A stretch of DNA of 64,000 nucleotides from Planctomycetota bacterium (GTDB taxonomy: Bacteria > Planctomycetota > Phycisphaerae > Sedimentisphaerales > Anaerobacaceae): the NCBI GenBank assembly GCA_020351025.1, contig CP070728.1, forward strand, positions 1,631,533 through 1,695,532, given 5' to 3'. The position numbers and the translations under genes are program-made. This document shows, in pieces, positions 5,738 through 8,060 of the stretch (position 1 is the stretch's first letter; every line of letters starts with the position of its first letter). The notes beneath the pieces were generated by a model, which was not told the origin of the DNA, searched no databases, and saw only the letters and a list, made by a program, of their open reading frames with translations.

Positions 5738-6676
5738 ATGTCAACAAACATTATCAAAGCAACCTCGACAGCTATGGTTGGCAAAGAAAAAATCACCATT
5801 GTCGACGACGAATTATTAGTACTGGCACCGGCCAAAATCAATCTGTCTTTGCTTGTGGCTGGCAAGCGTCCCGACGGCTTTCACGAAATAGAAACTATAA
5901 TGGCCAAGGTAAACTGGTATGACGAAATACTCATCCAGCGAGGCGTAAGGTCCGGCATAGAACTTGTATGTAAGGGCCCGTACTGGGCACCACAGGGGAG
6001 AGAGAATTTAGCCTACAAGGCCTGTGAAATGCTCCTGAAAAGCTGCGGCTCAAAAGCCAATATCAAAATCACCCTGACAAAGAATATTCCAGCCGGAGCC
6101 GGTCTCGGTTCAGCCAGCAGCGATGCCGCAGCAACACTAATAGGTGTCAGAAAATTTCTTCAATTGCCTCTTCAACCACAGAAGCTGCACGAAACGGCAA
6201 CAGCTTTGGGCAGCGACGTACCGTTCTTTCTCAACGGGCCATTGGCTCTTTGCACAGGAAAAGGTGAAAAAATTAAAAAATTAGAAAAATTTTTTGATTT
6301 TTCGGCCCTTTTAATACTACCGAATGTAAGTGTCTCTACAAAAAGGGTTTATGCTAATTATAAGGACAACAGAGCTTATTACGAAAAGCTCAGAGGCCAA
6401 ATAAACAGCTATATTGAAAAAAACAGGATTGATTTGGTACCAAGGATGTGCGCAAATATGTTAGAGAAAAGTTGTTTTAGTTTATACAGAGAAATTGCGG
6501 AACTGAAGGCCGAAATTGAGTCATCAGAGAGTTTGCTTGTATGTTTGAGCGGTAGCGGTTCCGCTATGTTTTGTATTATTGACAATAAGGATCTGGAAGA
6601 AGTCGGAGAAATCCAACATAATCTTCAGAAAAAGTACGGTTGCAACAGCCTTATCGTGAGCAACAACAGATGGTAA
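5738..6676 (+). CDS. ispE: 4-diphosphocytidyl-2-C-methyl-D-erythritol kinase
   Basis: A GHMP-family kinase of ~312 residues that phosphorylates CDP-ME on the 2-hydroxyl in the MEP isoprenoid pathway. APAKINLSLLV gives the substrate-side motif, PAGAGLGSASSDAA (from about residue 118) is the ATP loop, and LSGSGSAMF near the C-terminus is GHMP motif 3. The first ATG (5738) has no close ribosome site; an in-frame ATG at 5774 would trim 12 residues and fit the family length as well. dxr, another gene of the pathway, lies at 26.4 kb. The next gene is a spoVG variant, an ispE-spoVG proximity also known in Firmicutes. Confidence 0.95.
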   Translation: MSTNIIKATSTAMVGKEKITIVDDELLVLAPAKINLSLLVAGKRPDGFHEIETIMAKVNWYDEILIQRGVRSGIELVCKGPYWAPQGRENLAYKACEMLLKSCGSKANIKITLTKNIPAGAGLGSASSDAAATLIGVRKFLQLPLQPQKLHETATALGSDVPFFLNGPLALCTGKGEKIKKLEKFFDFSALLILPNVSVSTKRVYANYKDNRAYYEKLRGQINSYIEKNRIDLVPRMCANMLEKSCFSLYREIAELKAEIESSESLLVCLSGSGSAMFCIIDNKDLEEVGEIQHNLQKKYGCNSLIVSNNRW

Positions 6677-6697: not shown

Positions 6698-7138
6698 ATG
6701 GAAATCAGTGAGGTCAGAGTCAAATTAGTAGACAACAAGGATGATAGGTTAAAAGCTTTTTGCTCGGTGACGATGGACAATGAGTTTGTGATTCGCGACA
6801 TCAAGATTATCGAAGGTGCGGGTGGTCTTTTTGTCGCCATGCCGTCACGAAAAATGAGCGACCACTGCCCAAAGTGCGGAGGCAAAAATCATCTCAGAGC
6901 CAAATTCTGCAATAACTGTGGTGCAGCACTACCTGAAAACCGGGCCAAGAAAGATATGAAAGGCAGAATGAAGCTGCACGCCGATATCGCGCACCCAATT
7001 AACGCAGAATGCAGACAAAAAATCCAAGAAAAAGTTATAGCCGCTTTCAAGGAAGAAGTCGAAAAATCCAAAGAACCGGGATACAAACCTGTTGAGATGG
7101 ATGAGCCGGACGATGAAGTCCCTGAAATAGTTACGTAG
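6698..7138 (+). CDS. spoVG: SpoVG-like protein with an inserted zinc ribbon
   Basis: A 146-residue protein. Residues 1-51 follow SpoVG closely (I-S-E-V-R-V-K-L, then I-R-D-I-K-I-I-E-G, then F-V-A-M-P-S-R-K), and residues 90-108 resume it ([12 protein letters not shown]). Between the halves, residues 53-88 insert a four-cysteine ribbon (C57-P-K-C60 and C71-N-N-C74) plus a basic linker. SpoVG is a small site-specific DNA/RNA-binding regulator; the ribbon would add a metal-binding, probably nucleic-acid-contacting module. It lies 21 bp after ispE and is probably co-transcribed. The C-terminal tail is acidic. The SpoVG relationship is secure; the ribbon's role is inference. Confidence 0.88.
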
Positions 7139-7368: not shown

Positions 7369-7650
7369 TTAGGTAGTAAGTTCATCAAGAACTTTATCAA
7401 GAGCAACATCTAAACGTTCGTTGAGATTATATTTACCTTCGGTAAGCTGCCGGCGAATATCAAGAACTTTCTCCCTGCGAACCTCCGGCAGCGAGGCAAT
7501 TTTTTTTAACACCTGGCCAACAGGCGTAGTGTTAATATTCTCAAGGATTTGCTCCATAATCAAATCCTCATCCGAAATCACATTTTCATCAATTCTTCCC
7601 TCTCCTTGGTCTTGGCCTTCAACGCAGTCGTCGGAACGCACATTCGACAT
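7369..7650 (-). CDS. FlgM-like anti-sigma-28 family protein
   Basis: A ~93-residue soluble protein. The C-terminal half, with V-L-K-K-I-A-S-L-P-E-V-R-R-E-K-V then I-R-R-Q-L-T-E-G-K-Y and a final L-D-K-V-L-D-E-L, resembles the helical sigma-binding part of FlgM: the pattern of a V-x-x-I-R-x-x-I-x-x-G-x-Y turn followed by a helix with Ala/Leu spacing. The acidic N-terminal part would be disordered, as in FlgM. I chose the ATG at 7650, which has AGGA 9 bases upstream; the frame also opens to 7719. No flagellar genes are in the window. The family call is a motif judgement, not a search. Confidence 0.55.
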   Translation of the reverse strand: MSNVRSDDCVEGQDQGEGRIDENVISDEDLIMEQILENINTTPVGQVLKKIASLPEVRREKVLDIRRQLTEGKYNLNERLDVALDKVLDELTT

Positions 7651-8060
7651 TTTAACCAATCCTGATTGATAAGCTGCAGGCGAAAACCTCCGTATTTCCG
7701 TCTCAGAACTAATAACCACTATATATTGTATGCCCCCAAATCCTTTCGAGGAACAAAACCACTTTTACAATGTTGGTATCGACAGGAGCAGGCCGAAAAC
7801 TTTAGAAAAGTTTGGTTTTGCCCTAACTGGCTCAATGATATACGATTACATCAATGCAACAGCCAAACACGCCTTGTCAGTATTAAAATCTACGTTTTGA
7901 ACAAGCCCATCTTCACACCAAAAGGTGCCTAAGAATTCTATTTGGGCAAAATAGGTAATACACAACATATAGTGATATGCAAAAATTTTTGAAGAAAACA
8001 AAAACCAAAATGCCAGAATTGAATCAGCCGATAATATACTCAATAAACAATCGGTTAACC
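7651..8060. other. 410-bp gap without a supported gene
   Basis: Between gspM and the FlgM-like gene there are only short open frames with no family resemblance and no ribosome sites of note (for example 7846-8064 minus, 72 codons, hydrophobic). The sequence is AT-rich. It probably holds the end of the secretion-system transcript and a promoter for the FlgM-like gene, but I cannot point to either. Confidence 0.4.

Follow-up and report, generated by a model that had tools for sequence, protein, structure and literature searches.

The global regulator SpoVG is widespread, and its nucleic-acid specificity is still poorly understood. In the Staphylococcus aureus protein K50 and R51 are each needed for DNA binding, this basic doublet being likewise required in SpoVG of B. 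burgdorferi, and the DNA sequence preference of the S. aureus protein is set by a hexamer of the helix, SDMRQE (S66-E71) (PMC3688583). SpoVG also binds RNA, with an apparent Kd of 129-273 nM for several sRNAs (PMC4959528). The S. aureus and B. burgdorferi proteins bind DNA, and the one from L. monocytogenes prefers RNA over DNA (PMC3688583, PMC4959528). The SpoVGs of Bacillus subtilis and Staphylococcus (2IA9, 2I9X, 2I9Z; PF04026) share fold, motifs, basic doublet, helix and ispE linkage with the planctomycete form, but they measure 85-105 aa and carry a five-residue tip without cysteine pairs where the latter has a zinc ribbon.

An insert in SpoVG was described by Gupta, Bhandari and Naushad (2012) as a Planctomycetes-specific conserved signature indel (PMC3444138, Fig. 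A3), with 36 aa in all sequenced Planctomycetes according to the text and 32-36 aa according to the legend. The insert described here concerns the same protein and phylum and has the same length. However, it was treated in 2012 as a taxonomic marker only, while here it is recognized as a C4 ribbon, mapped onto SpoVG function and followed through ~170 loci and phage contigs. The terms 'zinc', 'cystein', 'ribbon' and 'CxxC' are absent from the main text of that paper (PMC3444138), and in the open-access literature we found no paper naming the insert as a zinc ribbon between nucleic-acid-contacting regions, and we came across no experimental work on a planctomycete SpoVG. What is new is the identity of the insert as a zinc ribbon, supported by Pfam, AlphaFold2 and Foldseek, and a marker in use since 2012 without a function now gains a functional hypothesis.

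The spoVG gene and its zinc-ribbon insert

The window, a stretch of 64,000 nucleotides from a planctomycete genome, contains the only spoVG copy of this genome (Table 1). Residues 1-119 of the product match the Pfam SpoVG family (PF04026) over all 82 model positions (1-82; 1.8e-29), with 102.2 bits against a curated cut-off of 29.6. The NCBIfam SpoVG equivalog NF009749/PRK13259 gives 97.5 bits, below its cut-off of 108, and its best stretch stops at the insert. The PDB matches 2i9z, 2i9x and 2ia9 are B. subtilis or S. epidermidis SpoVG and represent the sole solved relatives. Where 700 nt or more of upstream sequence were available, ispE is found directly upstream of spoVG in 146 of 162 planctomycete loci; it occupies the same place in one Fusobacterium record and lies 1.5 kb from spoVG in Heyndrickxia/Weizmannia (Bacillaceae). 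Since this linkage is kept, the locus can be considered an ordinary spoVG locus, which supports orthology. The window encodes the planctomycete orthologue of SpoVG, a nucleic-acid-binding regulator, and by analogy with other species this protein may bind DNA or RNA; both kinds of target would be possible because SpoVGs elsewhere bind either.

The downstream neighbours vary by family (FlgM-like, acetolactate synthase, shikimate enzymes) and were rejected as a clue to function, so that ispE alone is informative as a neighbour. In the window, the product of the convergent gene at 7369-7719 (-) is a FlgM-like anti-sigma-28 factor, whose Pfam match (3.9e-6) lies just above the cut-off, and a FlgM-like gene is kept next to spoVG in loci of the same order.

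Table 1. Features of the spoVG locus and ribbon-bearing viral copies (positions in the window unless a viral contig is named)
Feature	Position	Strand	Basis or context
ispE	5738-6676	+	Conserved neighbour; 21 nt separate it from spoVG downstream
spoVG with zinc-ribbon insert, 146 aa + stop	6698-7138	+	Pfam SpoVG and DZR matches, PDB SpoVG matches
N-terminal SpoVG beta part, residues 1-52, ending in MPSRK	6698-6853	+	F45, A47, M48, P49 invariant
Basic doublet R51-K52 (K50-R51 of S. aureus SpoVG)	6848-6853	+	Alignment; PMC3688583
C4 zinc ribbon, residues 53-78	6854-6931	+	Cysteine conservation, invariant spacing, AlphaFold2, Foldseek
Basic linker, residues 79-93, ending GRxKL	6932-6976	+	GRxKL conservation, charge
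Return strand 94-96, D-x-AHPI motif, C-terminal helix 103-124; residues 94-124	6977-7069	+	AlphaFold2; H99, P100, R106 invariant
Residues 103-108, AECRQK (helix hexamer SDMRQE, S66-E71, of S. aureus SpoVG)	7004-7021	+	Alignment; PMC3688583
Ribbon SpoVG, viral contig L223	8001-8429		Directly after portal and head-morphogenesis genes
Ribbon SpoVG, viral contig L230	7548-8060		After terminase
Ribbon SpoVG, viral contig L227	8001-8456		1.5-5 kb after terminase
Ribbon SpoVG, viral contig L229	from 8001		1.5-5 kb after terminase
Ribbon SpoVG, viral contig L226	5083-5490		About 1.5 kb after major head gene
Ribbon SpoVG, viral contig L201	3144-3551		No ispE

The insert consists of a C4 ribbon (CPKC-x10-CNNC) and a basic linker between MPSRK and DIAHPIN. 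It extends the interval from MPSRK to D-x-AHP to 41 residues, compared with 5 in Bacillota SpoVG, and the net gain of 36 aa is that of the published indel, the insert being present in every intact planctomycete orthologue examined. The predicted zinc ligands are C57, C60, C71 and C74, with codons within 6866-6919. Residues 53-75 match the Pfam DZR zinc ribbon (PF12773; 1.9e-7, 31.5 bits, cut-off 27.3), covering only positions 22-45 of its 45, which corresponds to a single CxxC-x10-CxxC with one zinc site and no tandem. The CxxCGxxN...FCxxCG consensus is shared with the DZR and zinc_ribbon families (PF12773, PF13240) and the DZR cut-off is exceeded, but the planctomycete ribbon is nested within another domain, and of the two ribbons in the DZR model it matches just the second. 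Counted as K/R minus D/E, the charge in the window protein amounts to +3 for the ribbon part and +4 for the linker part (residues 76-95); a positive net charge of the insert is common to 99% of the planctomycete representatives, with a mean of +4.8.

The AlphaFold2 model of the window protein has a mean pLDDT of 93.6, reaching about 96-97 in the ribbon. Strands are predicted in the N-terminal part at residues 3-10, 18-26, 30-40, 43-47 and 50-52, the last of which carries S50-R51-K52 and leads into the ribbon, from where the chain returns as strand 94-96 and continues to helix 103-124. In a model of the insert-less Weizmannia SpoVG, a loop of five residues joins strands 49-51 and 57-59, and in the predicted structures the ribbon takes the place of this beta-hairpin tip. 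With Foldseek, the whole model matches 2i9z and 2ia9 at E about 1e-6 and a probability of 1.00 (TM by target 0.72-0.88). As R51-K52 and residues 103-108 align with the S. aureus sites, the insert is placed exactly between the doublet that grips the backbone and the specificity helix. The initial annotation of this DNA had proposed from the letters alone that a four-cysteine ribbon and a basic linker split SpoVG between its beta part and the DNA-binding helix. Pfam, the alignment, the AlphaFold2 model and the published SpoVG mutagenesis together bear out the ribbon, the linker and their position.

The structural neighbours of the ribbon are NZF/RanBP2 fingers and archaeal L40e (eL40), aligned over 25-27 residues with a best rmsd of 1.0-1.3 A. 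Searched by itself, the ribbon gives weak matches, with E above 1 and a probability of about 0.9; since they include protein-binding NZF fingers, the fold does not distinguish RNA binding from protein binding. The C-x2-C-x3-N-x6-C-x2-C spacing and, for the best matches, a backbone within about 1 A rmsd are common to RanBP2-type/NZF fingers, eL40 and the planctomycete ribbon, but the latter lacks the Trp found two residues before the first Cys in the RanBP2 consensus, W-x-C-x2-4-C-x3-N-x6-C (PMC6384913). An assignment to the RNA-binding RanBP2 finger family (PF00641) was rejected on account of this missing Trp and a Pfam score of 15.7 bits against a cut-off of 27, although spacing and fold fit. 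DZANK1-type ribbons show the NHL.A.FC pattern as well, and the PDB sequence closest to the ribbon belongs to the double zinc ribbon protein DZANK1, by its name no nucleic-acid binder. For these reasons we claim no RNA recognition from the likeness to RanBP2 fingers.

Conservation across the Planctomycetota

Among 248 genomes from the same class, 103 have SpoVG; for the phylum the count is 233 of 392. Nearly all of the good-scoring matches listed span 340-370 nt compared with a 246-nt model, which indicates that the insert is near-universal among spoVG-bearing planctomycetes. In some groups of the class (families f9, f19, f21 and f23) spoVG has apparently been lost, near-complete genomes among them.

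The CxxC-x10-CxxC pattern is kept in every intact planctomycete orthologue among the ~170 loci compared, the only departures being two frame-broken ORFs in draft metagenome-assembled genomes (L121, L123). Because some species enter these loci twice via two collections, 109 representatives less than 82% identical provide the better count. When these were inspected for the CxxC pairs, all four cysteines proved 100% conserved with invariant spacing. The length of the insert is also far from random, with 135 of 172 loci sharing an interval of exactly 41 residues from the doublet to D-x-AHP. This invariance of the cysteines across ~170 loci led us to reject chance or artefact as the origin of the ribbon. 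Conservation in the representatives extends to non-ligand residues of the ribbon (K63 94%, N64 99%, G75 99%, L78 88%, and likewise H65, L66, R67 and A68), to the linker (G89 80%, R90 86%, K/R92 94%, L93 85%) and to the basic doublet (R51 97%, K52 95%); several surface positions of the ribbon are variable around the fixed zinc core. A Pfam scan of 113 members, four insert-less Bacillota included, returned SpoVG for all 113 and DZR for 97 (E up to 1e-3). Two further cysteines, C22 (6761-6763) and C105 (7010-7012), are found in 86% and 72% of planctomycete SpoVGs, respectively, and in none of the Bacillota sequences compared.

Insert-less hits within the phylum (L185-L194) might have pointed to local loss of the ribbon. 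This was rejected, as they form a separate, very divergent SpoVG-like subfamily and are not orthologues. Its members (L185, L186, L187 and L189-L194, from genomes G564, G257, G302, G338, G345, G546 and G410) are weak matches of about 85-100 aa with the pattern GLLGF...RR..GRL.LSYP.R.DR.GR.H and without the MPSRK motif, and they co-occur with ribbon SpoVG in some planctomycete genomes.

Possible roles of the ribbon

We consider it probable that a structural zinc ribbon enlarges the nucleic-acid-binding face of SpoVG, with putative zinc binding, direct contacts and a regulatory role. The five-residue hairpin tip would have been replaced by a C4 ribbon (~25 residues) together with a basic linker (~15 residues). 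Judging from the cysteine conservation and the predicted fold, the ribbon most likely holds one structural Zn2+ via C57, C60, C71 and C74. It would project beside the backbone-gripping basic doublet and the sequence-reading helix and add positive surface to the SpoVG dimer, by which DNA or RNA binding might be widened or retuned. A changed nucleic-acid recognition or target choice through the insert is what we infer from this arrangement, positive charge by itself being a weak argument. A phylum-wide ribbon between the doublet and the specificity helix amounts to a natural experiment on SpoVG target choice, and offers an entry point to the way Planctomycetota regulate their genes, their regulators being little characterized.

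Alternatively, the ribbon could serve as a protein-docking module that recruits SpoVG to a partner, e.g. RNA polymerase, the ribosome or an RNase, leaving recognition of the nucleic acid to the old surface. The NZF fingers among its nearest structural neighbours, which are bound to Ran-GDP and ubiquitin, and the variable surface around a fixed zinc core would suit such a role. However, the almost invariably positive net charge of the insert and its place right next to the nucleic-acid-binding doublet argue against it and no partner emerged; we think docking rather unlikely. Still less probable is a zinc or redox switch, in which SpoVG would be turned on or off through a hairpin altered by loss of the metal or oxidation of the thiols. 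Four invariant cysteines within the hairpin that bears the essential basic doublet, together with the additional C22, which 86% of the planctomycete representatives have and the Bacillota sequences lack, are compatible with this idea, but short C4 zinc ribbons are mostly structural and bind metal tightly, and a zinc or redox regulatory context was not seen in the gene neighbourhood.

A neutral, purely structural insertion kept by history can hardly be expected. A hairpin tip is a common site for tolerated insertions and the Weizmannia model shows insert-less SpoVG folding without a ribbon; yet loss of an intact ribbon was not seen in about 170 planctomycete loci, and conservation covers, besides the cysteines, the non-ligand residues K63, N64, H65, L66, R67 and A68 and the GRxKL of the linker.

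Origin of the insert and phage copies

In a tree calculated without the insert columns, a branch with an SH-aLRT of 99 sets the ribbon-bearing sequences apart from 17 of the 19 that have no insert; the tree comprises 89 columns, which limits its resolution, and the two exceptions (L215, L220) are long-branch viral rows of unsure placement. None of the Bacillota and Fusobacterium sequences compared has the insert, and for SpoVG hits from the plasmid and cultured-phage collections the spans fit no insert. A search for a donor copy of the ribbon elsewhere in the source genome gave nothing close (second hit E 0.65). Insertion of the ribbon was most likely a single event, before the known Planctomycetota diversified, and phages would have taken up the ribbon-bearing spoVG later. 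The insert had initially been thought to be possibly specific to its lineage. This could hold only if the lineage is taken as the phylum Planctomycetota plus the phages with copies branching among the planctomycete ones, and not for any narrower group, since the insert is phylum-wide.

Several IMG/VR contigs (the six listed in Table 1, together with L224 and L225) carry ribbon SpoVG without ispE. In L223, L226, L227, L229 and L230 the gene is part of a phage terminase/portal/head gene cluster. For L224 and L225 a clear packaging gene was not seen in the stretches scanned. The phage ribbon SpoVGs branch among planctomycete sequences in the tree without insert columns (L230 is not in this tree), which suggests that these phages have planctomycete hosts. 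One could go further and imagine ribbon SpoVG as a zinc-dependent bipartite DNA/RNA regulator with targets unlike those of Firmicute SpoVG, repeatedly captured by phages into the head/packaging cluster, from where it would act on transcripts of the host or the phage, a scenario that we regard as quite doubtful.

A second ribbon SpoVG paralogue, found in two genomes (L156 in G352 and L158 in G381), is likewise without ispE, and the Arg of its doublet is changed to His (MPSHK).
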